Source: Microcystis aeruginosa W13-11
Lineage (GTDB): Bacteria > Cyanobacteriota > Cyanobacteriia > Cyanobacteriales > Microcystaceae
Direction: 5' to 3'
Length of the DNA: 64,000 nt
Assembly (NCBI GenBank): GCA_009995705.1
Contig: JAADBR010000001.1
Coordinates: 1-64,000, forward strand
Every line of letters starts with the position of its first letter. The stretch's first letter is position 1. Both the position numbers and the translations under genes were made by a program. The notes under the pieces were generated by a model. That model saw only the letters and a list, made by a program, of their open reading frames with translations. It was not told where the DNA came from and made no database searches. Of this stretch, positions 24,864-61,829 are shown piece after piece.

Positions 24864-24952
24864 ATCAGTGTGCAGTAATCAGTTATCAGTGAGGGATTGG
24901 GGAGTTTTTTGCAGTAATCGGTAATCGGTGAACTGAAAACTCACATCTGATA

Positions 24953-25045
24953 TAGCGGTAAGCGCTTGAGTGAGATACAAACTAAGCTTTGCCTGGCATG
25001 GTTTATGGCTCGTGACACTGTACCTCATACGACTGCACACCGCTA
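24953..25045 (+). mobile_element. 93-bp MITE family E, copy 1
   Basis: The element runs from TAGCGGTAAGCGCTTGAG to GACTGCACACCGCTA with TA on each side, the pattern of IS630/Tc1-mariner-derived elements. It is identical over all 93 bp (97 counting the flanking TA) to the inverted copy inside the carbonic anhydrase gene at 58236-58328. Here it lies in the sphX-pstS intergenic region. No transposase of that type is in the window. Confidence 0.92.
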
Positions 25046-25295
25046 TAACTGATAACTGACCACTGATTCAAGGCTGAGGGATGATGGCTAAAAACCTTAA
25101 TCTTTTCTTTGTTGTTTTTACGTCACTATAATGGTAAGGAAGGAGAAACCTCCTATATAGACGGGAAAAGTTAGTGGCTTTACCCGCGACTTAAAACTAA
25201 TGTTTAGTCAAAATAAATGGTAAAAGAAGTTGAGATTTTTGTCTAGTTATCGAGAAAAATTTTCTTGACAATACATTACGTTCTTTTATTCACTT

Positions 25296-42846: not shown

Positions 42847-43737
42847 ATGACCAAATCAATTCAGCCTCTCTCTAATCCTAAACAACGACAAAAAATTCTC
42901 CCCAATTTTATTATTATCGGAGGGATGAAATGCGGAACAACCAGCCTTCATTATTATCTAAATTGTCACCCAGATATTTCTATGTCAACAGAGAAAGAAC
43001 TAGACTTTTTTCTTGAGAAAAAGAATTGGTATAAAGGACTAGGCTGGTATCAATCTCAATTTCGGGGTAAAGGAAAAATCTATGGAGAAGCTTCCCCTAA
43101 TTATACCAATTTCCCCCACTGGCCAGAAACCGCTTCACTGATGTCTAAAATTCTTCCTGACGTGAAACTAATCTATCTAGTTAGAGAACCAATTCAAAGA
43201 CTTATCTCCCATTATGTTCACAAATTAGCGGATGGAGGAGAAAATCGTTCCATTGAGGAAGCTCTCAGTGATTTTGAAGATAACTCTCATAATCCCTACA
43301 TTTGTCGGAGCCGTTACTATTTGCAGTTAGAGCAGTATTTACAGTATTTTGATGCTGCTAATCTCTTGATTATCACCACGGAAGAATTATATTATTACCC
43401 AGAACAAGTTTTACCAAAAATATTTAGATTTTTAGGAGTATCCGATAATATAACTTCTATCAACTGTCGAAAAAGGCTGCATGAATCTGTACTCAAAAGA
43501 AGGAAAACATTCCTAGGTAATCACATAGCTCAACTACCGATAATGACCAAAATAAATCATCTTCCACCTAGTCTGAGAAATCATGTTAATAAATTAATTT
43601 ATTTTCCTTTTTCCACTCCCGTTAGTAAACCTATCTTAGATACAGAATTGCGTCACCAATTAATTGAATATCTCAAAGATGATGTGGAGCAATTACGCCA
43701 GTTTACAGGTCAGAAATTCAGTGAGTGGTCTATCTAA
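42847..43737 (+). CDS. PAPS-dependent sulfotransferase domain protein
   Basis: The 296-residue cytosolic enzyme would transfer sulfate from PAPS to a glycan or small molecule. The 5'-phosphosulfate loop GMKCGTTSL is at residues 26-34, the 3'-phosphate site LVREPIQRLISHYVH near 113-127, and the RSRYYLQLEQYL region near 156. The last about 62 codons and the following 150 bp recur almost unchanged at 51594-51938. A sulfated surface polysaccharide is the simplest inference from its neighbours. Confidence 0.85.
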   Translation: MTKSIQPLSNPKQRQKILPNFIIIGGMKCGTTSLHYYLNCHPDISMSTEKELDFFLEKKNWYKGLGWYQSQFRGKGKIYGEASPNYTNFPHWPETASLMSKILPDVKLIYLVREPIQRLISHYVHKLADGGENRSIEEALSDFEDNSHNPYICRSRYYLQLEQYLQYFDAANLLIITTEELYYYPEQVLPKIFRFLGVSDNITSINCRKRLHESVLKRRKTFLGNHIAQLPIMTKINHLPPSLRNHVNKLIYFPFSTPVSKPILDTELRHQLIEYLKDDVEQLRQFTGQKFSEWSI

Positions 43738-43888
43738 AACTGTTCCTTAAAAACATCACTGAATTCATATAAATGTTTTTGATTTTAAGGATAAAGATTA
43801 TTTGTAGAAAATATGTTTCTTTTTCATTCTTTATAAACATCTTGGCGATGTCTAATTCTGGTGATTTTTATTATTTTATCATGATCAT
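43540..43888 (+). repeat. Duplicated block, copy 1
   Basis: This block (sulfotransferase 3' end, intergenic region and 3' end of the ParE-type toxin gene) matches 51588-51938 with about eight substitutions and one 4-bp insertion by eye. Upstream of it the two sulfotransferase genes are only distantly related; downstream copy 2 jumps into a flippase sequence. Confidence 0.85.
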
Positions 43889-44087
43889 CTATTGTGTAAA
43901 CAATGCGATAATCACCGATACGAACCCGATATAATTGATATTCTCCTTGTAGTTTAACAACACCAGAGGGACGAGGATCTTGCTGTAGTTGATCAAGACT
44001 TTCACCCACCCGTTGCTTAACCGAAAGGGGTAATTTTTTGAATTCTTTGGCTGCAGAAGTTTTAAATTGAATTCGATAATTATTCAT
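43824..44087 (-). CDS. RelE/ParE-family toxin
   Basis: The 87-residue product starts MNNYRIQFKTSAAKEFKKLP and has PRPSGVVKLQGEYQLYRVRI, GDYRIVYTIDD and the C-terminal TRIRHRQDVYKE, the RelE/ParE fold with its basic active-site region. It overlaps the upstream antitoxin by 8 nt. It would act as an mRNA interferase or gyrase inhibitor; the class cannot be told from sequence. It is homologous to the broken toxin at 21948. Confidence 0.9.
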   Translation of the reverse strand: MNNYRIQFKTSAAKEFKKLPLSVKQRVGESLDQLQQDPRPSGVVKLQGEYQLYRVRIGDYRIVYTIDDHDKIIKITRIRHRQDVYKE

Positions 44088-44271
44088 TGAGTGTATTTTC
44101 TGTTTCTAATTCTTGTTTTAACTCATCCCAAGAAATTTCTAATTCATTTTCTCGACTACGAGAGACTAAAATATCTGAAAAATCTTCCCAAAGTTCTCCC
44201 CATTCTTCTAAGTCAATGAGGACAGCTTTCTTTTCACCTTTTTCATTAATTACAAAGTTAATTCCTTTCAT
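44080..44271 (-). CDS. Antitoxin partner of the RelE/ParE toxin
   Basis: The 63-residue acidic product starts MKGINFVINEKGEKKAVLID and has EEWGELWEDFSDILVSRSRE, a Phd/YefM-like short antitoxin. It precedes and overlaps the toxin gene, the usual operon order. The autoregulatory DNA-binding part would be the N-terminus. Confidence 0.85.
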   Translation of the reverse strand: MKGINFVINEKGEKKAVLIDLEEWGELWEDFSDILVSRSRENELEISWDELKQELETENTLNE

Positions 44272-44336
44272 AATTGTTTTAAAAACAGAACCTTACACCT
44301 AATTGTACCATAAATCTGAGATACTCCCATCAATAA

Positions 44337-44987
44337 CTATTCCTCTTCTAAACCTAATCCTAACGCCTGTAAGCGTTCAGCTGGTCGGTCTGCACGTTTT
44401 TTCTCTTTATCCGCACGCTGTTTTTCTTGACGCATTTGAGACTCTAACTCAACGGTTGTTAAAAACTTCTCTCCATCGGGACGATACAATTCTAAGCTTG
44501 ATTCATTCCAGATAAAACGCATACCTAAACGGGGACTTATCCAGTCATTGATGGGGATAATTTCTGCTAAAATTTCTCCCTGTCTTTGCCATCCTTGTAA
44601 ACGACAGCGCATCGGATTATATAAATAGTATTCTTCTACCCTATAAGTGTCATAAAACTCCAATTTTCGACTCATTTCTGCTTTTGTATTCTTCGGTGAT
44701 AGAATTTCAAAAACCACTTGAGGAGGGATATTTTCTTGCTGCCATTGACGATAGGAACCGCCAAAAGCTACCATCACATCAGGAGCAACCGGTGAAACCA
44801 AAGTAGAACGCAGAGGATACCAGAGTAAATCTCCGGCAATAAACACCTTAGGGTCATCCGGAAAGATAATCTCTAAATTCTCCTTAATTTTGACAATTCA
44901 CTCATATTGTTCGGTATTATCTGCCATCGGTTGACCATCGCTATCGGGGAAAAGAAGATCGTCGTCAACATCAAGATAACTAACCAT
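44337..44987 (-). pseudogene. Uma2 family (DUF820) nuclease-like gene with nonsense codon
   Basis: The full frame is a 216-residue Uma2 protein, but the codon after NTEQYE is TGA where the intact copy at 53803-54513 has TGG (Trp). The rest is preserved: VSPVAPDVMVAFG, PPQVVFEILSPKNTKAEMSR, FYDTYRVEEYYLYNP. It also lacks the GRPKGRR insert of the other copy and has a shorter KKRADKE coiled-coil repeat. A downstream restart would miss the N-terminal region. Confidence 0.85.
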
Positions 44988-45073
44988 TGTCTTTTAATTT
45001 TAATAGATGGTTGTTTTCTGATTATAGCAAGATTTTGATCTATAATAAAGGCTGAAATTAAAATATATTAAAG

Positions 45074-46528
45074 ATGAACATTAAAAAGAAAACTATTCAA
45101 GGCATTTTTTGGTCAGGACTGCAAAATTGGGGTAGTCAAGCGGGTTCATTTATAATATTTTTAATTCTCGCTCGTCTATTAACTCCAGAAGCTTTTGGTT
45201 TAGTAGCATTGGCTAATGTATTGATAAACTTCATGCAGATTTTTTTAAATCAAGGGTTTGCTCAAGTATTGATTCAAAAACAGGATTTAGAATCGCAAGA
45301 TATAAATACAGTTTTTTGGACACAGGTATTTACGGGATGTCTTTTAACAACTATCACTTTTTTTTCTGCTATTTTAATATCTAAAGTTTTTCATCAACCC
45401 TCTTTAATTCCTATCCTACAAATTCTTGCGTTAGTTTTTATTATTAATGCTTTTAGTCAAACTCAAGCATCCCTATTAAGACGTGATTTTAAATTTAAAG
45501 TCCTGGCAACTCGCTCTTTATTAGGAATCATCATTGCTGGTATCGTCGGTGTGGTCATGGCACTTTTAGGATACGGTGTTTGGAGTTTAGTCAGCCAACA
45601 GTTAACCTACGAACTTATGGGGGTTGTTGTTCTTTGGACTGCCGGCAATTGGCGACCAAAATGGGAATTTTCTTGGATAACTTTAACAGAAATATTTTCT
45701 TTTAGTATCAATGTTTTAGGATATAAAATGATGGAGTTCTTTAACCAGAAAACTGATAATCTATTAGTCGGTTATTTTTTAGGGGAAGTTGCCCTAGGTT
45801 ATTATGCAATTTCCCATCGAATTTTAGAAGTAATGACCCAATTGTTAATCGGAACATTAAACCAAGTTGCTTTACCAACTTTTTCGCGCTTGCAAAAAGA
45901 TTCTCAAGGGTTTATAGCCGCCTATTATCGAATCACTCAATTTACCAGCTTAATCGCTTTTCCAGTCTTTTTTGCCGTGATAATTCTCAGTCCAGAATTA
46001 TTGGTGAGTTTGTTTGGTCAAAAATGGACTAACGCTATTCCTATTCTCCAAATTATTCCCCTCGTGGGAATACTTCATGCTATCACTTTCTCTCAAAGGT
46101 CTGCTTTTGTCGCCCTAGGCAAACCCATATTACAGTTTAAATTGGGACTACTCAATGCAGTTTTAAATATTATTGCTTGTTTAATCGCCCTACAGTGGGG
46201 AATCTTAGCTGTAGCCACAGCTTATGTCCTCAGTGATTATCTAGTTTTTCCCCTTGGACAATGGCTTTTAAGTCAATTAATTCCCCTGACATGGAAAACC
46301 TATCTATCGCAATTTATTGCCCCTATAACCTGCACAGCAATTATGATTTTTACCCTGCTTGGCACTCAAAGAATTTTTTTATCTCATTCCTATCCCTTGC
46401 TGAATTTAGTTATTGCTTCCCTCCTGGGAACAATTGCCTATATTCTCAGCTTTTTTCTCCTCTTTCCTCAACTGTTTCAACAAATATGGGAACTAGGAAG
46501 ACTCTTAAAACCCACCTCTGAAAATTAA
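45074..46528 (+). CDS. Oligosaccharide flippase (MOP superfamily, WzxC-like)
   Basis: The 484-residue membrane protein has about 12-14 helices and the family signature near the N-terminus (FWSGLQNWGSQAGSFIIFLI, then LARLLTPEAFGLVALANVL). MOP flippases move lipid-linked oligosaccharide repeats across the inner membrane. It is followed within 13 bp by a GT4 gene, so it belongs to the glycan operon. A truncated second copy of its C-terminal third lies at 51939-52463. Confidence 0.9.
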   Translation: MNIKKKTIQGIFWSGLQNWGSQAGSFIIFLILARLLTPEAFGLVALANVLINFMQIFLNQGFAQVLIQKQDLESQDINTVFWTQVFTGCLLTTITFFSAILISKVFHQPSLIPILQILALVFIINAFSQTQASLLRRDFKFKVLATRSLLGIIIAGIVGVVMALLGYGVWSLVSQQLTYELMGVVVLWTAGNWRPKWEFSWITLTEIFSFSINVLGYKMMEFFNQKTDNLLVGYFLGEVALGYYAISHRILEVMTQLLIGTLNQVALPTFSRLQKDSQGFIAAYYRITQFTSLIAFPVFFAVIILSPELLVSLFGQKWTNAIPILQIIPLVGILHAITFSQRSAFVALGKPILQFKLGLLNAVLNIIACLIALQWGILAVATAYVLSDYLVFPLGQWLLSQLIPLTWKTYLSQFIAPITCTAIMIFTLLGTQRIFLSHSYPLLNLVIASLLGTIAYILSFFLLFPQLFQQIWELGRLLKPTSEN

Positions 46529-51032: not shown

Positions 51033-51786
51033 TTGCCCAAAATAACTCAAGTTAAAATGTTAAGAAACGTTTGCGATTGCCCTTTTGGACAAAGGATATG
51101 GTACAAGTCCCAGTTTGTCAGTAGTGCTAAAATTTATGGAGAGGCTTCACCTTCTTATGCTAAATACCCCATTTTTACGGGAGTTCCTGAGAGAATGTAT
51201 TCTGTTATTCCCTATGCTAAATTAATTGATGTTGTCCGATATCTCATTCAAAGAATTCTTTCTCAGTATGTTCATAGATATGCTGATGGAACCGAGGATC
51301 GAACCTTAGCGGAAGCATTGACAGATTTTGAAAATAATTCTTATATCTGTCGTAGTCAGTATTGTTTACAAATAGAACAATATCTACAGTATTATTCTCC
51401 TGACAAAATTTTAGTCATCTCCTCTGAAGAATTATCAAATACTCCTCAGAAAACTCTACAAACTGTCTTTAAATTTTTGGGAGTATCCGACAATTTTGAA
51501 ATCATTAAGCATCAAAAAAAATTACATAAGCCAATTTATAAACGAAGAAAAACTAACGTTGGTGAGAGGATTGCATCTTTACCAGTAATGACCAAAATAA
51601 ATCATCTTCCACCTAGTCTGAGAAATCATGTTAATAAATAAATTAATTTATTTTCCTTTTTCCACTCCCGTTAGTAAACCTATCTTAGATACAGAATTGC
51701 GTCAGCAATTAATTGAATATCTCAAAGATGATGTGGAGCAATTACGCCAGTTTACAGGTCAGAAATTCAGTGAGTGGTCTATCTAA
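51033..51786 (+). pseudogene. Second sulfotransferase, truncated and frameshifted
   Basis: The frame begins without the PAPS loop: the first recognisable part is WYKSQFVSSAKIYGEASPSY, and the 3'-phosphate site reads VVRYLIQRILSQYVH instead of VREPIQR. A 4-bp insertion after SLRNHVNK (AATAAATAAATTAATT) ends the frame at 51641; the last 47 codons continue out of frame. It lacks about 55 N-terminal residues. The 50810-51032 gap before it has a short LLFDDIHWTKQGN, possibly a methyltransferase scrap. Confidence 0.85.
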
Positions 51787-51938
51787 AACTGTTCCTTAAA
51801 AAGATCACTGAATTCACATAAATATTTTTGATTTTAAGGATAAAGACTATTTGTAGAAAATATGTTTTTTTTTCATTCTTTATAAACATCTTGGCGATGT
51901 CTGATTATGGTGATTTTTATTATTTTATCATGATCATC
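51588..51938 (+). repeat. Duplicated block, copy 2
   Basis: Matches 43540-43888. It ends exactly where a flippase-like sequence begins (CATGATCAT then CTTTGGTCAAAAATGG). It carries the sulfotransferase end and, on the minus strand at about 51877-51938, the last about 20 codons of a ParE-type toxin gene. Confidence 0.85.
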
Positions 51939-52463
51939 TTTGGTCAAAAATGGACTAATACTATTCCTATTCTGCAAATTATCTCCCTTGTGGGAATACT
52001 TCGGGCGATTACTGTCTTTCAAAGGTCTGCTTTTGTTTCCCTCGGTCAACCCTTGCTACAATTTAAATTAGGTTTACTCAATGCCACTTTAAATGTTATC
52101 GCTTGCCTCATCGCCGTGCAGTGGGGCATTTTAGCCGTAGCCACAGCTTATGTCCTCAGTGATTATCTAGTTTTTCCCCTCGGACAATGGCTTTTAAGTA
52201 AATTAATTTCCCTTTCTTGGAAAACCTATCTAGCTCAATTTATCGCCCCCATTACTAGCACGGTTATAATGGGTTTAACGATTTTAATAACTCAACAATT
52301 ACTCAGCTCTTGGTTAAAACCTCAAGGTTGTTTAATAATATGCCCCCTTCTGGGAATAACTATCTATACTGCCACCCTCCGCTTCGCTTTCCCCCAATTA
52401 TTTTCGCAAATTTTTACCACGCTTAATCTCCTGCGAAATTCTCCTAAAACTAGCCGCAAATAA
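51939..52463 (+). pseudogene. Flippase C-terminal fragment
   Basis: Starting at FGQKWTNTIPILQIISLVGI the frame matches the last about 170 residues of the flippase at 45074 (FGQKWTNAIPILQII), including YVLSDYLVFPLGQWLLS. The N-terminal two thirds are absent and replaced by toxin-antisense DNA. No proper start. It is a deletion-fusion remnant. Confidence 0.88.
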
Positions 52464-52480
52464 AGAAACTATTCAAGTTT

Positions 52481-53374
52481 ATGATGACAGAAACGCCAAT
52501 CACTTTTTCTATTATTACTCCCACCTATAACCGTCCCGAAAGACTCAAAACCTGCCTAGACTCTCTCCTAAGTCTAGATTATCCTCCAGATAACTTTGAA
52601 ATTATTATCGTCGATGATGGCAGTAATCAACCCCTTGATACCCTGGTTAACCCTTACCAAAATCAATTAAATTTAACTCTCATTCGTCAGAATAATTCAG
52701 GACCGGCTAAAGCCAGAAATACTGGTGCTAACGCAGCCCAAGGTGAATATTTAGCCTTTACCGATGATGATTGCACCCTTGATCAAAAATGGCTCTCAGC
52801 CCTTGAAAAAGGCTTCTTAGAAACACCAAACGCTCTCTTAGGAGGAAAAACGATCAACGCCCTGCCCAATAACCCCTATTCCACTGCTAGTCAGCTATTG
52901 ATCGATTACCTCTACGATTACTATAATCACCAATCCCAAAAAGTCCAGTTTTTTGCTTCTAATAATTTCGCCCTTTCTAGAGAATTATTCCAAAAAGTCG
53001 GACAATTTGATCTTAGCTTTCCCCTCGCCGCCGGAGAAGATCGAGAATTTTGCGATCGCTGGTTAGGGGCTGGTTATCCCCTAGTCTATATTGACGATGC
53101 GATCATTTACCATGCCCATCACCTCACCCTGACTAAATTCTGGCGACAACATTTTAACTATGGTTGTGGTGCTTACTATTTCCATCAAATTCGTTCTCGT
53201 CGTAATCAAACATCCCTGAAAGTTGAGCCATTAAACTTTTACTTTCAACTACTAACTTATCCATTTTTAAAACAATGTGAGCAAACATCAAAAGTATTCC
53301 TTTCGGGTTTATTATTAATCTCACAATTAGCCAATATTTTAGGTTTTTTTAAGATAAAATTGCAAAATATTTAG
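52481..53374 (+). CDS. GT2 family glycosyltransferase
   Basis: The 297-residue GT-A enzyme has FSIITPTYNRPERLKTCLDS at 9-28, FEIIIVDDGS near 39-48, YLAFTDDDCTLDQKW near 90 with the metal motif, and LAAGEDREFCDRWLGAGYPL near 183 as catalytic base. One or two weak hydrophobic segments near the C-terminus may tether it. It follows the flippase fragment and precedes a truncated GT4 gene. Intact by length. Confidence 0.88.
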   Translation: MMTETPITFSIITPTYNRPERLKTCLDSLLSLDYPPDNFEIIIVDDGSNQPLDTLVNPYQNQLNLTLIRQNNSGPAKARNTGANAAQGEYLAFTDDDCTLDQKWLSALEKGFLETPNALLGGKTINALPNNPYSTASQLLIDYLYDYYNHQSQKVQFFASNNFALSRELFQKVGQFDLSFPLAAGEDREFCDRWLGAGYPLVYIDDAIIYHAHHLTLTKFWRQHFNYGCGAYYFHQIRSRRNQTSLKVEPLNFYFQLLTYPFLKQCEQTSKVFLSGLLLISQLANILGFFKIKLQNI

Positions 53375-53400
53375 CTCAATAAATTGCCAAAAATAAAAAA

Positions 53401-53535
53401 ATGAACCAGAATTATTCGATTAAAATAGGTATAGATGGCAGTTTTTTATCAGGTCAAAAACGAGGTCATGCTCGTTATGCTTTTGAGCTTTGTCGTGAAC
53501 TAGACACATATTTACCTAACGCCAATTTCTTTATT
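53401..53535 (+). pseudogene. GT4 glycosyltransferase, truncated by MITE
   Basis: From ATG 53401 the frame reads IKIGIDGSFLSGQKRGHARY, then AFELCRELDTYLPNANFFI, a typical GT4 N-terminus with the donor-independent glycine loop. The family B MITE starts at 53536 and supplies an immediate stop. No remainder of the gene is found on the far side, so about 320 residues were deleted or replaced. Confidence 0.85.
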
Positions 53536-53738
53536 TAGGGTCTGCTGAATAAATCTAAAAACCTTGTTGGGTAAAACTTTTAGACTTTTTGTCAATCAAA
53601 AAGTAGCGGACTGGGAGTGATCAGGGGGAAAATTCCGGGACTTTTTCCCTGAAAATTAGGTAGTTGACCACCTGAAAATCGGTAAAACCCCACACCCCAC
53701 ACCCTACCCCCAAGAAAAACTTTTTGCCGCAAACCCTA
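53536..53738 (+). mobile_element. MITE family B, copy 2 (203 bp)
   Basis: Ends TAGGGTCTGCTGAATAAATC and TTTTTGCCGCAAACCCTA, with ATT and AAT immediately outside. Left end TAGGGTCTGCTGAA matches copies at 9117 and 61937; TAAAAACCTTG is shared inside. It truncates the GT4 gene. Confidence 0.75.
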
Positions 53739-53802
53739 AATACTATTTTCCCAAAGTAAAGATAGAGATGGTCATGCCTGCTACCAATAAAGAAAAATGG
53801 TA

Positions 53803-54513
53803 TTATTCTTCTTCTAAAGTTAATCCTAACGCCTGTAAGCGTTTCGCTAGTCGATCAGCGCGTTTCTTTTCTTGGTCAGCGCGTTTCTTTTCTTTATCGG
53901 CACGTTTCTTTTCTTGATCAGCGCGTTTCTTTTCTTGACGCATTTGAGACTCTAACTCAACAGTTGTTAAAAATTTCTCTCCATCAGGACGATACAATTC
54001 TAAACTAGATTTATCCCAGATAAAACGCATACCTAAACGGGGACTTATCCAGTCATTAATGGGGATAATTTCTCTTAAATTCTCTCCCTGTCTTTGCCAT
54101 CCTTGTAAACGACAGCGCATCGGGTTATATAAGTAGTATTCTTCCACGCTATAGGTGTCATAAAACTCTAATTTTCGACTCATTTCTGCTTTTGTATTCT
54201 TCGGTGATAGAATTTCAAAAACCACTTGAGGAGCGATATTTTCTTCCTGCCATTGACGATAAGAACCCCTTCGTCCTTTGGGACGGCCAAAAGCTACCAT
54301 CACATCGGGAGCAACTGGTGAAACCAAAGTAGAACGCAGAGGATACCAAAGTAAATCTCCGGCAATAAACACCGTAGGATCATCGGCGAAGATAATCTCT
54401 AAATTCTCCTTAATTTTGACAATCCACTCGTATTGTTCGGTATTATCTGCCATCGGTTGACCATCACTATCTGGGAAAAGAAGATCGTCGTCAATATCAA
54501 GATAACTAACCAT
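53803..54513 (-). CDS. Uma2 family (DUF820) endonuclease-like protein
   Basis: The 236-residue protein has the PD-(D/E)XK-like Uma2 fold (PDVMVAFGRPKGRRGSYRQW, VVFEILSPKNTKAEMSRKLE, EEYYLYNPMRCRLQGW) and a C-terminal coiled coil built from seven-residue KKRADQE/KKRADKE repeats near 196-222. Uma2 proteins are numerous in cyanobacteria and of unknown biological role. It is the intact relative of the gene at 44337-44987, with more coiled-coil repeats. It starts MVSYLDIDDDLLFPDSD. Confidence 0.88.
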   Translation of the reverse strand: MVSYLDIDDDLLFPDSDGQPMADNTEQYEWIVKIKENLEIIFADDPTVFIAGDLLWYPLRSTLVSPVAPDVMVAFGRPKGRRGSYRQWQEENIAPQVVFEILSPKNTKAEMSRKLEFYDTYSVEEYYLYNPMRCRLQGWQRQGENLREIIPINDWISPRLGMRFIWDKSSLELYRPDGEKFLTTVELESQMRQEKKRADQEKKRADKEKKRADQEKKRADRLAKRLQALGLTLEEE

Positions 54514-54596
54514 TGTCTTTTATTTTTAATAGATGGTTGTTTTCTGATTGTAGCAAGATAATTATGAATTATGGGGAGTAGGGGAGCGGCGGTTAT

Positions 54597-54699: not shown

Positions 54700-55644
54700 T
54701 TGATACAGGCAACCCTGCACCAGTTAAGGGTTTTTGAGGCTACCGCTCGACACAGTAGCTTCACCAAGGCGGCCGAGGAGTTATTTATCACTCAACCCAC
54801 CGTCTCAACCCAAGTCAAACAACTCACAAAAGCCGTGGGTTTACCGCTATTCGAGCAAATTGGCAAACGTTTATTTTTAACCGAAGCGGGTCAGGAATTA
54901 CTGTTCACCTGTCAAGAGATTTTTGATAAATTGGACAACTTTCAAATGAAAGTGGCCGATATTAAGGGAACTAGACAGGGAAAGCTGACTTTAGCCGTAA
55001 TTACCACCGCTAAATACTTTGTGCCGCGATTACTGGGGGCGTTCTGTCAACAGTATCCTGGCATTGACATCGCCCTGCAAGTGACTAATCATCAGAAACT
55101 GCAAGAGCGAATGTCAAACAACGAGGATGACCTCTATATTCTCAGTCAACCGCCGGAAGAAGTGGAACTGTGTTCTCAGTCTTTTCTGGAAAATCCTCTA
55201 GTGGTGGTGGCGCGACGGGATCATCCTTTGGTGGGTAAGAAAAATCTCCCCCTTGAGTGCCTCAACCATCAACCTTTCATCATGCGCGAATCGGGATCCG
55301 GAACCCGACAAGCGGTACAAAAATTATTTAATCTCCACGATATTAAAGTTAAGGTGCGCTTGGAATTAGGCAGTAACGAAGCTATTAAACAGGCTATTTC
55401 TGGCGGTTTGGGAATATCGGTACTATCTAAGCACACTCTCATCTCGGAAGGGGAAAACGGCGAACTAGCCATCCTCGACGTGGAACAGTTTCCGATTCAG
55501 CGCCATTGGTACGTTTGTTACCTGGCCGGAAAACAACTTTCCGTGATTGCCGATGCTTTTTTAAAATACCTACTGGAAGCTAGTCAAACCATCCCCATTC
55601 ATGCCCCGTTAAAAAATGGCCACAGCCTATTAGTGACCCATTAA
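54700..55644 (+). CDS. ndhR: LysR-type regulator NdhR/CcmR
   Basis: The 314-residue LysR regulator has an N-terminal winged helix (LHQLRVFEATARHSSFTKAA, EELFITQPTVSTQVKQLTKA, residues 6-45) and a periplasmic-binding-like effector domain (about 95-300). Position directly upstream of ndhF3-ndhD3-cupA identifies it as NdhR/CcmR, which in Synechocystis represses the high-affinity CO2-uptake genes and senses 2-oxoglutarate and NADP+. The start is TTG with GGAGGG upstream. It is 46 bp from ndhF3, so it may be co-transcribed. Confidence 0.88.
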   Translation: MIQATLHQLRVFEATARHSSFTKAAEELFITQPTVSTQVKQLTKAVGLPLFEQIGKRLFLTEAGQELLFTCQEIFDKLDNFQMKVADIKGTRQGKLTLAVITTAKYFVPRLLGAFCQQYPGIDIALQVTNHQKLQERMSNNEDDLYILSQPPEEVELCSQSFLENPLVVVARRDHPLVGKKNLPLECLNHQPFIMRESGSGTRQAVQKLFNLHDIKVKVRLELGSNEAIKQAISGGLGISVLSKHTLISEGENGELAILDVEQFPIQRHWYVCYLAGKQLSVIADAFLKYLLEASQTIPIHAPLKNGHSLLVTH

Positions 55645-55690: not shown

Positions 55691-57544
55691 ATGTTCGAGT
55701 CCTTCAGCCAGACTATCTGGTTGGTACCTCTTTATGCCTTTGCGGGCGCACTTCTGGCTCTACCCTGGTCTCCCGGCATTATCCGGCAAACCGGCCCGCG
55801 ACCGGCTGGTTATCTGAACTTGATCATGACTTTCTTGGCTTTTTTCCATAGCCTTTTTGCTTTAATCGCCGTTTGGGGTCGTCCACCGCAATCTCTAGCA
55901 TTTAATTGGCTAAATGCGGCAGATTTAAGCATATCTTTAGATGTGCAGATTTCGGCTGTTAACATCGGGGCTTTACTGCTAATTACCGGCTTAAACCTCG
56001 CCGCTCAGGTATATGCGATCGCCTATCTAGAAATGGATTGGGGTTGGGCAAGATTTTATTCTCTCGTCGCTCTCTTTGAAGGGGGTATGTGCGCCCTCGT
56101 TATCTGTAATTCGCTATTTTTCAGCTATTGTGTGCTAGAAGTTCTCACCCTCGGCACTTATCTGCTGATTGGTTTCTGGTTCAATCAATCTCTGGTGGTG
56201 ACGGGGGCGCGGGATGCTTTTCTAACCAAACGGATTGGCGATTTAATCCTCTTGATGGGAGTGGTGGCCCTTTTACCCCTAGCGGGAACCTGGAACTTTG
56301 ACCAATTGGCAGAATGGGCGGCTACAGCCAATTTAAACCCCAATGTGGCTAATTTACTCTGTTTAGCCCTGATTGCCGGTCCGATGGGCAAATGCGCTCA
56401 ATTTCCCCTGCATTTATGGCTAGATGAGGCCATGGAAGGACCGATGCCGGCGACAATTCTGCGGAATACCGTCGTCGTTTCCACTGGAGCCTGGTTATTG
56501 GTGAAATTAGAGCCGGTGCTACAATTATCGCCTTTAACCTTACAAGTAATGACCATTGTTGGCTCTGTCACTGCCATCGGTGCGGGTTTAATTGCGATCG
56601 CCCAGATCGATGTTAAGCGCTCCCTTTCCTATTCCGTCAGTGCCTACATGGGACTGATTTTTATCGCTGTGGCCACCGGACAAACAGAAACCGCTTTAGT
56701 GTTACTGTTTACATACGCGATCGCTATGTCCCTGTTAGTCATGGTGGTGGGTAACATCATTTGGAATAATATCAGCCAGGATTTAAGCCAATACGGCGGT
56801 TTATGGTCCCGTCGTCCCGTTTCTGGTATTTGTTATCTCGTCGGTGCCGCTAGTTTAGTCGCACTGCCTCCCTTTGGTGGTTTTTGGTCATTAGCCCCCA
56901 TGGGCGATCGCCTCGCAGAAGTCAGTGGTTTACTGTTATTAGTGCTATTGTTGGTCAATGCTTTAACTGCTTTTAGTGTCACTAGAGAATTTTGCGTTTT
57001 CTTTGGCGGTAAAATCAAACCAATGACCCTGCGCTCTCCGGAAGCTCTTTGGCCCTTAGTTATCCCCATGACTGTGACCATGGGTTTCGCCATTCATGTG
57101 CCGATTTTATTAGCGCAATGGCATTTATTACCAAGTAACTTAAATCTGGGAGTGGCTTTTCTCTTGGTGCTTTCCACTGCTGCGGGCGTAATTCCGGCAG
57201 CATATATTTATCTGAATGATAATATCCCCAAACCGATCGTTTTTCAACCGAAAGCTCTTCAAGATTTCTTTGCCAACGACCTTTATACAGCCAAATTGTA
57301 TAAAGTCACCATCGTTTTTGTCGTCGGATTAATCTCGCAAATTATTAACTGGATCGATACCTTTCTGGTGGATGGCATCGTTAACCTAGTGGGATTAGCC
57401 ACGGTTTTTGGTGGTCAGAGTTTGAAATATAACGTCTCGGGCCAGACCCAATTTTACTTTCTGTCGATTATTTTAGGGGTGGCTTTGATTGGTATTATCA
57501 TCTGCTGGCCTCTGCTATCACAGATTTCTCTAGTTTTCAGTTAA
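55691..57544 (+). CDS. ndhF3: NDH-1 subunit F3 (CO2 uptake complex NDH-1MS)
   Basis: The 617-residue antiporter-like membrane subunit of the inducible NDH-1MS complex has about 15 helices and Lys-containing segments of the proton channel. The position just before ndhD3 and cupA marks it as ndhF3 rather than ndhF1 or ndhF4. NDH-1MS couples reduced plastoquinone chemistry with hydration of CO2 to bicarbonate in the cytoplasm. The next gene is a broken carbonic anhydrase, 81 bp on. Confidence 0.93.
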   Translation: MFESFSQTIWLVPLYAFAGALLALPWSPGIIRQTGPRPAGYLNLIMTFLAFFHSLFALIAVWGRPPQSLAFNWLNAADLSISLDVQISAVNIGALLLITGLNLAAQVYAIAYLEMDWGWARFYSLVALFEGGMCALVICNSLFFSYCVLEVLTLGTYLLIGFWFNQSLVVTGARDAFLTKRIGDLILLMGVVALLPLAGTWNFDQLAEWAATANLNPNVANLLCLALIAGPMGKCAQFPLHLWLDEAMEGPMPATILRNTVVVSTGAWLLVKLEPVLQLSPLTLQVMTIVGSVTAIGAGLIAIAQIDVKRSLSYSVSAYMGLIFIAVATGQTETALVLLFTYAIAMSLLVMVVGNIIWNNISQDLSQYGGLWSRRPVSGICYLVGAASLVALPPFGGFWSLAPMGDRLAEVSGLLLLVLLLVNALTAFSVTREFCVFFGGKIKPMTLRSPEALWPLVIPMTVTMGFAIHVPILLAQWHLLPSNLNLGVAFLLVLSTAAGVIPAAYIYLNDNIPKPIVFQPKALQDFFANDLYTAKLYKVTIVFVVGLISQIINWIDTFLVDGIVNLVGLATVFGGQSLKYNVSGQTQFYFLSIILGVALIGIIICWPLLSQISLVFS

Positions 57545-57624: not shown

Positions 57625-58445
57625 ATGTTCAATACCTCTCGTCGCCAATTAATCCGTTATGGGGGTGGTTTTTTGGGAACTGGTCTAGCCGCTACTATTT
57701 TAGGCTCGCAACTGTCCCAAACTAACGCCCAAACTGCTGTTAATTCCGAGCCATGGCTAACTGCTCAAAATAAGGGATTGAACCCCGACCAAGCTTTAAC
57801 TATGCTCATGGAAGGCAATCAACGTTTCTGGGAACGAAGACAAAAAAGTCCTAACCGCGATCAAGCTCGACTCACAGAAGTGGCCGAAAGTCAAGCCCCT
57901 TTTGCGGCAATTTTGGGCTGTGCCGATTCTCGCGTGCCGGCAGAAATCGTTTTTGATCAAGGATTAGGAGATCTATTTGTTTGTCGGGTAGCGGGAAATT
58001 TAGCCACTTCCGAAGAAATTGGTAGCCTCGAATTCGGCACGTTGGTGTTAGGAGCTAAGGTAATTGTTGTCCTCGGTCATTCCCGTTGTGGAGCGGTAAA
58101 AGCTACCATTGAAGGGGGTCGTTTTCCTGGACAAATCGGTCGTTTAATCGATGGCCTACAGGTGGGAGTTGATCGAGCCGAAAGACAACCCGGTTCTAAC
58201 AAACTTGAGCGAGCAATTAAATCCAATGTTAACTATAGCGGTGTGCAGTCGTATGAGGTACAGTGTCACGAGCCATAAACCATGCCAGGCAAAGCTTAGT
58301 TTGTATCTCACTCAAGCGCTTACCGCTATATCAAGTAGAGAAATTAGGCAAATCCCCAGTTATCGGTGAATTAGTGGACGGCAAACAATTAAAAGTTGTC
58401 GGTGCTTACTATGATCTCGATAGCGGCAAAGTGAGTTTAATCTAG
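57625..58445 (+). pseudogene. Tat-exported beta-carbonic anhydrase, interrupted by 93-bp MITE
   Basis: The N-terminus has a twin-arginine signal (SRRQLIRYGGGFLG). The beta-class zinc site is complete: GCADSRVPAEI (Cys, Asp, Arg) and GHSRCGAVKA (His, Cys). At codon 204 (AIKSNVNY) the MITE enters. Without it the codons join as N-V-N-Y-Q-V-E-K and run to DSGKVSLI at 58445, which restores a normal 240-residue enzyme. As is, the product ends after 217 residues with 14 foreign residues, losing the C-terminal segment. It resembles periplasmic EcaB-type enzymes. A partly active truncated product cannot be excluded. Confidence 0.92.
58236..58328 (-). mobile_element. 93-bp MITE family E, copy 2
   Basis: The reverse complement is identical to 24953-25045 at every base. 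Flanking TA dinucleotides are at 58234-58235 and 58329-58330; one TA belongs to the TAT codon of the host gene. This is the TA-target pattern of IS630/Tc1-mariner elements. Confidence 0.95.
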
Positions 58446-58523
58446 TCAATTCCATATTAGTCATCCTGTTGGTTGGCTAATCGTTTTCTCATCCCAGTCA
58501 TTGTAAATTCGATCGATACCAAT

Positions 58524-60074
58524 ATGCTCAGTACCCTGCTTTGGTTGCCAATAATTGGAGCAATTATCGTCGGTCTTTTCCCCGATAAATTCGCCCCAGC
58601 AAAATTACGTCAAATAACTCTCTTTTTTGTTGCCGCCGTCTTCGTTTGGTCTTTATATCTGCTGACTCAATATAACTTAACCAGCAGTGGCTTTCAATTT
58701 TCTGAATACCGCGAATGGGCAAAACCAATCGGTTTAAATTATAACCTCGGAGTCGATGGTTTGTCCTTACCGTTAATTATTTTAAACTGTTTCTTGACAG
58801 GAATAGCTATCTATAGTAGCGAAGAAAAACTAGAGCGTCCCCGACTTTACTACATCCTCATCCTCCTAATTAACGCTGGGGTTTCTGGGGCATTAATGGC
58901 CAAAAATCTGCTGCTGTTCATCGTTTTCTATGAACTAGAATTAATCCCCTTTTATCTGATGATTGCTATCTGGGGAGGCGAAAAACGTGGCTATGCTTCG
59001 ATTAAATTCCTTCTCTACACTGCCGTCTCCGGGTTATTAGTCCTAGCGGCATTTTTAGGCATAGGTTTCCTCAATGGTGGCACTTTTGACTATTCTTCCC
59101 TCTCGACCGATGATTTCTCCCAAAAAACCCAATTACTGCTCTTAACTCTGTTGTTAGTGGGATTTGGCATCAAAATCCCCCTCGTACCTCTCCACACTTG
59201 GCTACCGGATGCCTATACGGAAGCTTCCCCCGCTACAGCAATTTTATTAGGTGGTATTCTCGCTAAACTGGGTACTTATGGCTTAGTTCGCTTTGGTCTG
59301 CAATTATTCCCAGAAACTTGGTCTTTAATCGCCTCTGGACTGGCAATTATCGGCGTTACTAGCGTTATTTACGGGGCCTTGAGCGCTATTGCCCAAAAAG
59401 ACATTAAACGCATGGTGGCCTACAGCTCGATCGGTCACATGGGCTATATACTGGTAGCAGCCGCCGCCGGCACGGGTTTAAGCGTTCTTGGTGCCGTCGC
59501 GCAAATGATTAGCCACGGTTTGATTCTTGCCCTTTTATTCTATCTGGTGGGCATTGTCGAACGCAAAGCCGGAACCAGAGATTTAGACGTTTTAAACGGT
59601 TTAATGAACCCAATTCGCGGTTTACCCCTAGTTAGCGCTCTGTTAATTCTCGCCGGTATGGCCAGCGCTGGTATTCCAGGATTAGTGGGATTTGTGGCGG
59701 AATTTATCGTTTTTCAGGGTAGTTTTTCCCGTTTTCCCTTGCAGACGGTTTTCTGCATCATCGCTTCAGGTTTAACGGCGGTTTACTTTGTTATCCTGCT
59801 TAATCGCACCTGTTTTGGCAAATTGGATAATAAACTTGCCTACTATCCCAAAGTCTTGAAATCGGAAACTATCCCCGCTTTTGTCCTAATGGTATTAATC
59901 GTCTTTTTAGGTATTCAACCCAATTATTTAGTCCGTTGGATTGAACCCACCACTAACTCGATGGTTGCCAGCTTATCGGGACAAGCAAAACCTAGTTTTG
60001 TCCTCAAAAAATCTCCGCAGAAGTCCTCAAAAACTAACTGGTTTAATCGGGGTAAATATTTATCTGCCAGTTGA
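58524..60074 (+). CDS. ndhD3: NDH-1 subunit D3 (CO2 uptake complex NDH-1MS)
   Basis: The 516-residue membrane subunit has about 14 helices, beginning MLSTLLWLPIIGAIIVGLFP; the open frame extends upstream from a TTG but ATG 58524 matches the NdhD start. Conserved proton-channel segments are YELELIPFYLMIAIWG (Glu) and GIKIPLVPLHTWLPDAYTEA (Lys). Between ndhF3 and cupA it is the D3 type. If the mutant upstream carbonic anhydrase transcript is polar, ndhD3 could be affected. Confidence 0.93.
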   Translation: MLSTLLWLPIIGAIIVGLFPDKFAPAKLRQITLFFVAAVFVWSLYLLTQYNLTSSGFQFSEYREWAKPIGLNYNLGVDGLSLPLIILNCFLTGIAIYSSEEKLERPRLYYILILLINAGVSGALMAKNLLLFIVFYELELIPFYLMIAIWGGEKRGYASIKFLLYTAVSGLLVLAAFLGIGFLNGGTFDYSSLSTDDFSQKTQLLLLTLLLVGFGIKIPLVPLHTWLPDAYTEASPATAILLGGILAKLGTYGLVRFGLQLFPETWSLIASGLAIIGVTSVIYGALSAIAQKDIKRMVAYSSIGHMGYILVAAAAGTGLSVLGAVAQMISHGLILALLFYLVGIVERKAGTRDLDVLNGLMNPIRGLPLVSALLILAGMASAGIPGLVGFVAEFIVFQGSFSRFPLQTVFCIIASGLTAVYFVILLNRTCFGKLDNKLAYYPKVLKSETIPAFVLMVLIVFLGIQPNYLVRWIEPTTNSMVASLSGQAKPSFVLKKSPQKSSKTNWFNRGKYLSAS

Positions 60075-60113: not shown

Positions 60114-60479
60114 ATGAAATTAATCTCACTGATTTCCTTTAGTTTGCTAACCACAGGAATTATTACTTTATCTCCCTTGGTTGTCGCCCAAACAGCAATC
60201 AGCGGCCTAAGAGATACAAGAACAATTACCATATCTGGACAGGTAAAAAGTGTGGTTGGTAACGACTTTATTTTAGCTGATCACACTGGTCAAGTAATTG
60301 TCGATGCAGGACCGCGCTGGTGGCAAGAAATTAACGTATCAGTGGGAGAATATCTCACCGTGGTCGGAGAGTATGACGAGGGAGAATTTGATGCTTTTTC
60401 GATTACTCGTCCCAACGGTCAAGTTATGCAAATTCGTCCCCAATTTGGACCGCCACCCTGGGCAGGAAAAAAAGATTAA
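60114..60479 (+). CDS. Exported BOF-type OB-fold protein
   Basis: The 121-residue product has a signal peptide (MKLISLISFSLLTTGIITLS, cleaved near VVAQ at 26). The rest is a compact beta-barrel: ITISGQVKSVVGNDFILADH, GQVIVDAGPRWWQEINVSVG and EYLTVVGEYDEGEFDAFSI resemble the bacterial OB-fold (YgiW/DUF5666-like). It is placed between ndhD3 and cupA on the same strand. A periplasmic partner in CO2 uptake is possible but nothing shows it. Confidence 0.7.
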   Translation: MKLISLISFSLLTTGIITLSPLVVAQTAISGLRDTRTITISGQVKSVVGNDFILADHTGQVIVDAGPRWWQEINVSVGEYLTVVGEYDEGEFDAFSITRPNGQVMQIRPQFGPPPWAGKKD

Positions 60480-60527: not shown

Positions 60528-61829
60528 ATGGTACAAACTCCTGTTAAACCCACTGCCAAAATTCCCCCTTCTACTCACGAATTCGCCGACATTATCCACC
60601 GTTTAGAATCGGGTGGCTCCATGTTACCGGATACTCCCGAAAACCTGATGCAAATTATCGGCATTTATAAAGCTTATGCTGTACCGATGGATTTTTATTG
60701 GCGAGATCTGCTCTATATTGCCGAACGAGTTTTCCTCGATCCTTTGCCCTTTTTTAAATATTTTCTACCCCAAGAATACCTAGACCTACAAAATCATTAC
60801 TCCGGCGATAATGCCGATTTACGCATCTGGCGCGGCACGGGTTCTGCTCACCCTGAATTGTTAGAATTTATGGATAAAGGTAAAACCCGAAAAATGCCCA
60901 GATTAATCCATCATCTTTGGCATGATCGCATTAATATGGAATTTGCCGAAGCATGTATGCAAGCCATGTTATGGCATGGCCGTGATATGGGTTGGGGTTT
61001 ATTTGATGCCTATCTTGATTCAGAAGAATATCGCCAAAATGCCGACCGCGCTATTAAGGCCTATTTCAAGAAAAACCCCGTGATGATGAAACTTTATGAC
61101 CTGTTCCCCGATATGTTCTTAGAACAGGTGCGGATGATGTCCTATTACTCTAATTTAGGACTATTCTGGGAAGTGATGGCTCCAGTATTTTTCGAGATGT
61201 CTGATATCTACGATGAAGGCGGATTTAAAGGTGTTCCCGATGCCATGAATTTCCTCGTTAATGGCATTTTTGCCATCGCTGGCCGGCCAATTTATCATCA
61301 CGTTTATATTGATGGTCAATGCTACGAAATTATCCCCAAATCAAAGGCTTTTACTTGGCTTTATGAAGCGGCTTTACCCTATGTAGAAGCGGTCTTTTAT
61401 CGTACTGCACCCTTCCGGGGTACAAAGTCCTATAATGCCCAAGCAAAACAGGTTCCCGACCAACAAAAAGACTTTCACTATGGTATTCTTTACGCGGATG
61501 TTTTCCCCGTGGGTACTGCGGGAATTCCTCCGACCTTGTTAATGGATGATATGTATCATTTTTTACCCCAATATCTGATCGATTACTATCAACAAAACTG
61601 CCGGGGGGAAGATGATATTTTGATTCAATTGGGTATTAGTTTCCAGCGATCGATGTATAATGTGACTTCGGCAGTTATTCAAGCTCTACGCACTGCTTTA
61701 CTCTATCCCCTCGACGATCCTAATCCCAAACATTTACTGAAAAATCGTCAATTCTTTGAGGCACAAATGGACAGATTTAAACGCCCCGAAGCGCGTCTTA
61801 GAGATATCCAAAGTCCTAATTATCGTTGA
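60528..61829 (+). CDS. cupA: CO2 hydration protein CupA/ChpY
   Basis: The 433-residue soluble subunit sits on NDH-1MS and converts CO2 to bicarbonate. FADIIHRLESGGSMLPDTPE at 19-38, RLIHHLWHDRINMEFAEACM near 125-144 and MLWHGRDMGWGLFDAYL near 147-163 are hallmark His-rich segments of ChpX/ChpY. The neighbours ndhF3 and ndhD3 mark it as CupA/ChpY rather than CupB/ChpX. cupS, which follows cupA in Synechocystis, is not found here. Confidence 0.95.
   Translation: MVQTPVKPTAKIPPSTHEFADIIHRLESGGSMLPDTPENLMQIIGIYKAYAVPMDFYWRDLLYIAERVFLDPLPFFKYFLPQEYLDLQNHYSGDNADLRIWRGTGSAHPELLEFMDKGKTRKMPRLIHHLWHDRINMEFAEACMQAMLWHGRDMGWGLFDAYLDSEEYRQNADRAIKAYFKKNPVMMKLYDLFPDMFLEQVRMMSYYSNLGLFWEVMAPVFFEMSDIYDEGGFKGVPDAMNFLVNGIFAIAGRPIYHHVYIDGQCYEIIPKSKAFTWLYEAALPYVEAVFYRTAPFRGTKSYNAQAKQVPDQQKDFHYGILYADVFPVGTAGIPPTLLMDDMYHFLPQYLIDYYQQNCRGEDDILIQLGISFQRSMYNVTSAVIQALRTALLYPLDDPNPKHLLKNRQFFEAQMDRFKRPEARLRDIQSPNYR

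Follow-up and report, generated by a model that had tools for sequence, protein, structure and literature searches.

The whole stretch of DNA analyzed here, 64,000 nucleotides of Microcystis aeruginosa (the window), holds a beta-carbonic anhydrase (CA) gene that is interrupted by a short mobile element. We are highly confident in the following scenario: an IS630/Tc1-type non-autonomous MITE of 93 bp, probably moved in trans by an IS630-family transposase, has inserted, in a jump that looks young, at a TA in codon 204 of this operon-borne gene. Translation now runs on for 14 codons and stops in the element. The truncated CA retains the Tat-type signal as well as the zinc and catalytic residues, yet has likely lost its function, with ndhD3 and cupA downstream probably still being transcribed.

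Materials and methods

Twelve Microcystis genomes were searched as relatives of the window; the CA gene is present in eleven of them, and the twelfth (G003) gave no match. Seven named Microcystis contigs (L001-L007), with which the window shares 93-98 % identity in the 5' part of the CA gene and 87-98 % in its 3' part, correspond to contigs of seven of the searched genomes and are therefore not independent of the count of eleven. From at least 555 candidate loci in the CA locus scan the best 80 were kept (L001-L080); the cut between L021 and L022 used below was seen in the data and not set beforehand. The CA protein alignment (A1) has 46 rows, i.e. one intact relative and 45 proteins chosen from the 120 listed of 8000 scored. 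Counts of the element family cover the genomes of the 12 relatives and the window. For comparison of element copies, 75 distinct copies were used (74 from Microcystis genomes and one viral), 72 of them gap-free. The end pattern by which a related IS630 element was found was sought in eight of the 12 genomes. Articles cited by PMC number are represented by excerpts, and statements on their content hold for these excerpts.

Results

The MITE begins with TAGCGGT and ends with ACCGCTA, and its terminal inverted repeats are perfect over 9 bp including the TA and imperfect to about 28 bp (coordinates in Table 1). A preceding sequence-only reading of this DNA had described the 93 bp as identical, in inverted orientation, to a second stretch of the window. 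Our repeat search confirmed this: the identity extends over 100 bp (58234-58333 versus 24948-25047), comprising the 93 bp, both TAs and a right-hand TCA. A 27-base pattern of the left end, searched with up to 3 mismatches allowed, matched the window twice, both times exactly, against a mean of 0.00 in 100 shuffles.

By coordinates, the flanks of the element join in 11 of the 11 relatives holding the gene, their site being 95 bp shorter (93 bp plus one TA), and none of them carries the insertion; the letters of the empty site were printed for seven genomes (six plus one). A single TA at the empty sites faces two in the window, i.e. the insertion duplicated the TA. The frame of the relatives is continuous and encodes 241 aa, which bears out the earlier claim that the element entered after codon 203 and that removing it with one TA restores the frame. 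Since empty and filled sites both read TAT (Tyr) at the codon following 203, the protein diverges after residue 204. At the locus of the second copy both near flanks were found, without the element, in three of the 12 relatives (L117, L119 and L120); a near flank is missing from the remaining nine.

Table 1. Position of the element, the interrupted gene and the neighboring genes in the window.
Feature	Position	Strand	Evidence
Other copy of the 93-bp MITE, amid further repeats	24953..25045	-	repeat search
LysR-type regulator upstream of the operon	54700..55644	+	ORF, locus comparison
ndhF3	55691..57544	+	TIGR01960, 941.5 bits, above cut-off
Truncated beta-CA frame of 217 aa (203 codons of the host gene + 14)	57625..58278	+	PF00484, stretch 95-202
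Left TA target duplication	58234..58235	.	single TA at relatives' empty sites
93-bp MITE in the CA gene	58236..58328	+	repeat search, terminal inverted repeats, empty sites in relatives
Right TA target duplication	58329..58330	.	single TA at relatives' empty sites
Detached 3' part of the CA gene, original stop TAG at 58443-58445	58331..58445	+	continuous with 5' part in relatives; no private substitutions
ndhD3 (presumed), start ATG at 58524, frame open	58524..60074	+	ORF, locus comparison
121-aa protein, weak BOF (OB fold) likeness	60114..60479	+	PF04076, 22.7 bits, below cut-off of 25.8
cupA (chpY), CO2 hydration protein	60528..61829	+	TIGR01964, 782 bits, above cut-off

The interrupted CA frame ends at a new TAA (58276-58278) within the element. 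Intact, the CA has 241 aa in all 18 loci read, which stand for the 11 genomes; the truncation removes its last 37 residues. All 46 aligned proteins share five residues, C99, D101, R103, H152 and C155, each of which precedes the break. We take C99, H152 and C155 to be the Cys-His-Cys zinc ligands, and D101 and R103 to be the Asp-Arg pair. A twin-arginine motif at residues 6-7 is also invariant in all 46 rows and is followed by a hydrophobic stretch (a reading of the motif). At sequence level these features support the earlier description of a beta-CA with an intact zinc site; the protein bears a Tat-type signal, and the break falls after its zinc and catalytic residues.

Beyond residue 203, and hence in the lost part, the same 46-row alignment has six more invariant residues. 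Residues 51-238 of the intact relative can be aligned with solved beta-CAs; its best solved relatives are the beta-CAs 1ym3/2a5v, Rv3588c, and its model matches Rv3588c best. With the 45 relatives of this alignment, AlphaFold2 gave a mean pLDDT of 71.6 and a pTM of 0.71 for the intact protein (residues 201-241 at 84-94), and with the same relatives 46.1 and 0.31 for the truncated one, such confidence values being no test of stability. In the model the truncation removes the C-terminal strands, one helix and the end of another, and because of this loss the truncated CA most probably fails to fold or to assemble. Alignment and model together make the strain a probable natural loss-of-function mutant for this CA.

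A truncated CA that is still active and exported, with an insertion near neutral for CO2 handling, would be in keeping with the retained zinc and catalytic residues, the Tat-type motif and most of the Pro_CA domain (PF00484, 97.9 bits versus 135.3 in the intact relative, cut-off 25.7). There is also an analogy in Microcystis sbp, which is cut by another MITE and for which a kept binding site and a similar fold have been argued (PMC11448079). Against this, the alignment pairs the missing residues with the C-terminal region of Rv3588c, the intact model predicts them with some of its highest confidence, the model of the truncated protein has low confidence, and the six invariant residues beyond the break are gone; residual activity is in our view unlikely.

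The only other match in the 11 relatives is a distant (31-33 %) CA of 287 aa, present in nine of them. A deposited 217-aa truncated form was not found at the identity of the window among the 120 proteins listed of 8000 scored, which says little, as the protein database is clustered at 90 %. The sole 217-aa protein listed (P0111) is 65 % identical and has the full C-terminus, and so do two shorter Microcystis forms (P0017 and P0018); none of the three represents this mutation.

The host gene does lie between ndhF3 and ndhD3, as stated in the sequence-only reading. The name ndhD3 and the designation of the LysR-type gene upstream as CcmR-like are our assumptions from position. The frames of ndhF3, ndhD3 and cupA are open in the window. 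Between ndhD3 and cupA, the 121-aa BOF-like gene is found in the window and in L002 and L003 (at E <= 1e-20 in two of the seven contigs L001-L007), and gave no match at E <= 1e-20 in the other five.

The suggestion that the insertion may be polar on ndhD3 found no support. Rho above the curated cut-off was found in none of the 12 Microcystis genomes, with 8 of 14 controls passing; the weak matches in all 12 genomes (at most 38.3 bits, cut-off 509.45) are probably other ATPases. Terminator-like sites were not found in 58000-58700, and for the MITE inside Microcystis sbp transcription through the element has been reported from RT-PCR, with faint bands (PMC11448079). Given these three observations polarity is not the best reading, and ndhD3 and cupA are, as we infer, probably still transcribed. 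An insertion that acts mainly by polarity would lower ndhD3 and cupA and so the whole high-affinity CO2-uptake complex. Indeed the MITE lies upstream of both genes on the same strand, the untranslated gap before the ndhD3 start has grown from 78 nt (79 in one relative) to 245 nt, and the RNA of the element is predicted to form a hairpin (-30.6 kcal/mol, z -2.4). Hairpin and longer gap may affect downstream expression; as the main effect of the insertion, however, polarity is quite improbable in view of the lack of Rho matches above the cut-off and of terminator-like sites, and of the sbp analogy.

In G003 no match to ndhF3, CA or cupA was obtained at operon-level identity. The stretch beside its cupB starts with a run of 12,001 N, seven other loci of this genome being free of N runs, and absence of the operon there is therefore not proven. 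The LysR gene has only a 67 % match in G003; cupB-type and ndhD4-type genes are present. Elsewhere in the window, four pairs of direct repeats (293-300 nt, 85-97 % alike, 5.9-9.5 kb apart) between 43588-46312 and 51637-54572 suggest duplicated genes.

The MITE family has 105 matches in 11 of the 12 Microcystis genomes (none in G001). By our own count 73 of them are 93-97 % identical to the window copy and 32 are 74-82 % identical, the single 82 % match covering half of the element only; no match among the 105 in the 12 genomes exceeds 97 %. TA stands at both ends in 74 of the 75 copies compared, and one identical sequence accounts for 27 of the 75 and is spread over six genomes. At the level of sequence the family is homogeneous across strains. 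Its TA duplication, short terminal inverted repeats, many copies and IS630-like ends agree with the assignment to TA-flanked MITEs of the IS630 type; at 93 bp the element is too short for a transposase gene.

A search for an IS630-type element with the ends of the MITE, which the sequence-only reading had proposed, yielded one with similar ends, an IS630 element of 1077 bp between TA flanks. Its left end agrees with each MITE end at 23 of 28 terminal bases, and its right end with the two MITE ends at 23 and 19 of 28. The 321-aa product of this element is an IS630-family transposase (NF033545, 200.7 bits, cut-off 100). An origin of the MITE as a deletion derivative of this element is not supported: the match fades past about 28 of the 45 terminal bases compared. 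Among the 12 genomes, an intact matching transposase in a full-length single open frame is present in G003 only (G003:C1:446568-447530). G010 and G011 hold a full-length copy with a stop, and several copies in G003 and G012 consist of two overlapping frames, reminiscent of frameshifted IS630 transposases. Three MITE-rich genomes are without an intact copy: nothing matched in G005 at E <= 1e-60, and the matches in G006 and G007 are all diverged, with stops or as a 107-residue fragment. The 64-kb window itself contains no match to the transposase. Judging from the similar ends, an IS630-family transposase acting in trans probably moved the window copy; the rarity of intact copies of the matching transposase counts against it.

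Some further members of the family deserve mention. In G012, 13 stretches (L192-L204) hold 13 MITE copies with the same 20-base left flank and differing right flanks. By eye the common flank resembles the terminus of a different TATAGCG-type MITE, and these copies are perhaps a chimeric MITE that multiplied. On a 51-kb IMG/VR viral contig a copy with 6 differences and one damaged end (L111:13589-13685) adjoins a HAD-like gene, the other ORFs of this contig being phage-like by eye; phages may carry the MITE between strains. M. aeruginosa LEGE 91341, to which the window is most closely related at the CA gene, has a MITE of the same family about 0.4 kb downstream of cupA (L001:10117-10213), which is a separate insertion.

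Over 726 aligned bp the CA gene of the window has no private substitutions relative to the 11 relatives. One intact relative also has none, the others have 1-14 over the same 726 bp, and the nearest relative differs from the window at 10 places; the zero is thus weak dating, which fits a young insertion without dating it. Compared with the sequence that occurs 27-fold in the family, the window copies show three differences. At MITE position 41 both window copies carry a C, which none of the 72 gap-free copies compared shares, and the bases at the other two places are present in 7 and 6 of the 72. Because of position 41, both window copies seem to stem from one variant that is, among the copies compared, special to this lineage.

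The earlier note had concluded on very recent movement or recombination from the identity of the two copies. This inference is weakened, as identical copies are common in the family and a very recent jump can hardly be read from identity by itself. What stands is an insertion that looks young relative to the divergence of the compared strains, supported in sequence by the empty site in all 11 gene-holding relatives, the lack of private substitutions and the window-only MITE variant. The identical window copies could instead reflect recombination or gene conversion between repeats and no recent jump. In favor of this are two identical, inverted copies 33 kb apart and a family with many identical copies within and between genomes. 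However, gene conversion alone cannot make an insertion at an empty TA, and the flank order at both places of the window is kept in the relatives, which leaves this alternative little probability; because of the unchanged flank order we also reject an inversion between the two copies. A later conversion could nevertheless have homogenized the window copies, which would weaken the dating. An assembly artefact, conceivable for a multi-copy short element, is extremely improbable, since both flanks are parts of a single gene, uninterrupted in all 11 relatives that have it, the TA duplication is clean, and ordinary reads should be able to span so short an element.

Discussion

The less expected part of our data is not the MITE insertion but its target, a beta-CA with a Tat-type signal between ndhF3 and ndhD3 in nine families. 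In L001-L021, the best 21 of the 80 loci kept (seven of them Microcystis), ndhF3 and ndhD3 enclose the CA and cupA follows. None of the 59 loci L022-L080 has ndhF3 or ndhD3 near the CA, some of those contigs being short. The 22 linked CA proteins, from nine named cyanobacterial families, fall within one branch of 24 rows (support 99/98). This branch also holds two long-branched Gemmatimonadota rows, so that the linkage label needs two changes on the tree. As the twin-arginine motif is found in non-linked CAs examined as well, it does not mark the linked clade. In the literature excerpts at hand we found no description of the gene order ndhF3-CA-ndhD3; Sandrini et al. 2014 may show one. An exported-type beta-CA beside ndhF3 in nine families is circumstantial evidence for a role with NDH-1MS.

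Such a role could be that of a dedicated lumenal partner of NDH-1MS, with the CA forming CO2 from bicarbonate in the acid lumen and feeding the NdhF3 channel, an idea that we put forward tentatively and with low confidence. It is disputed whether NDH-1MS draws its CO2 from the cytoplasm or from the lumen of the thylakoids (PMC10096703, PMC13249358). Structural work has proposed a hydrophobic channel of NdhF3 as the CO2 entry, which leads to the lumen, biochemical proof lacking (PMC13249358), and according to a review EcaB interacts with CupA/CupB (PMC10096703). A CA of exported type whose gene adjoins ndhF3 would fit a lumenal source. Counting against the lumenal idea, external CA activity in Microcystis was negligible in older studies to which PMC4419860 refers. 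At high CO2 the same article reports constant ecaB expression and slightly decreased ndhF3 expression, where we assume that its ecaB is the present gene.

EcaB of Synechocystis PCC 6803 is an exported beta-class CA of thylakoid/periplasmic location (PMC10096703), the window CA being of exported type by motif only. We regard the latter as putatively EcaB-type, likened by class and signal motif; the name ecaB has also been applied to a Microcystis gene (PMC4419860, PMC4681089). Synechocystis ecaB is slr0051 and ndhF3, ndhD3 and cupA are sll1732-sll1734 (PMC5472144), which places ecaB outside that operon, unlike the window CA. In the excerpted text of PMC5472144, twelve alkaliphilic strains have ndhF3, ndhD3 and cupA with no EcaB orthologue detected, and EcaB or CcaA is given for only six of 17 thermophiles in that of PMC9120777. 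The enzyme is accordingly no constant component of all NDH-1MS complexes. If the lumenal idea is true, the MITE-hit strain would be a natural test, keeping the other parts of the NDH-1MS operon and having no lumenal CA. The role of exported beta-CAs is unproven, and a broken copy with the rest of the operon open allows a comparison without genetic engineering.

The disruption of cyanobacterial genes by MITEs is already known, and it is the target gene that gives the present case its value. Kaneko et al. 2007 reportedly dealt with MITEs of Microcystis NIES-843 and Min et al. 2006 with an element of Microcystis FACHB-854, and the 93-bp family may be among those already described for the genus. 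In another genus of planktonic cyanobacteria, Anabaena sp. 90 has likewise short MITEs, 15 of 147 inside disrupted ORFs (pseudogenes); they were called type II, with no IS with matching repeats (PMC3542288). The closest parallel in the genus itself is the MITE in Microcystis sbp (PMC11448079), which is also transposase-free and multi-copy, sits in a coding gene and cuts the protein short, and has homologues in other strains and on putative viral scaffolds, as is the case here. The sbp element, however, measures 187 bp, has an 8-nt target duplication and 9-nt ends (GGCTCTTCG) and is of the ISL3 type, whereas the window MITE has 93 bp, a TA duplication and IS630-type ends, with a carbonic anhydrase as its target.
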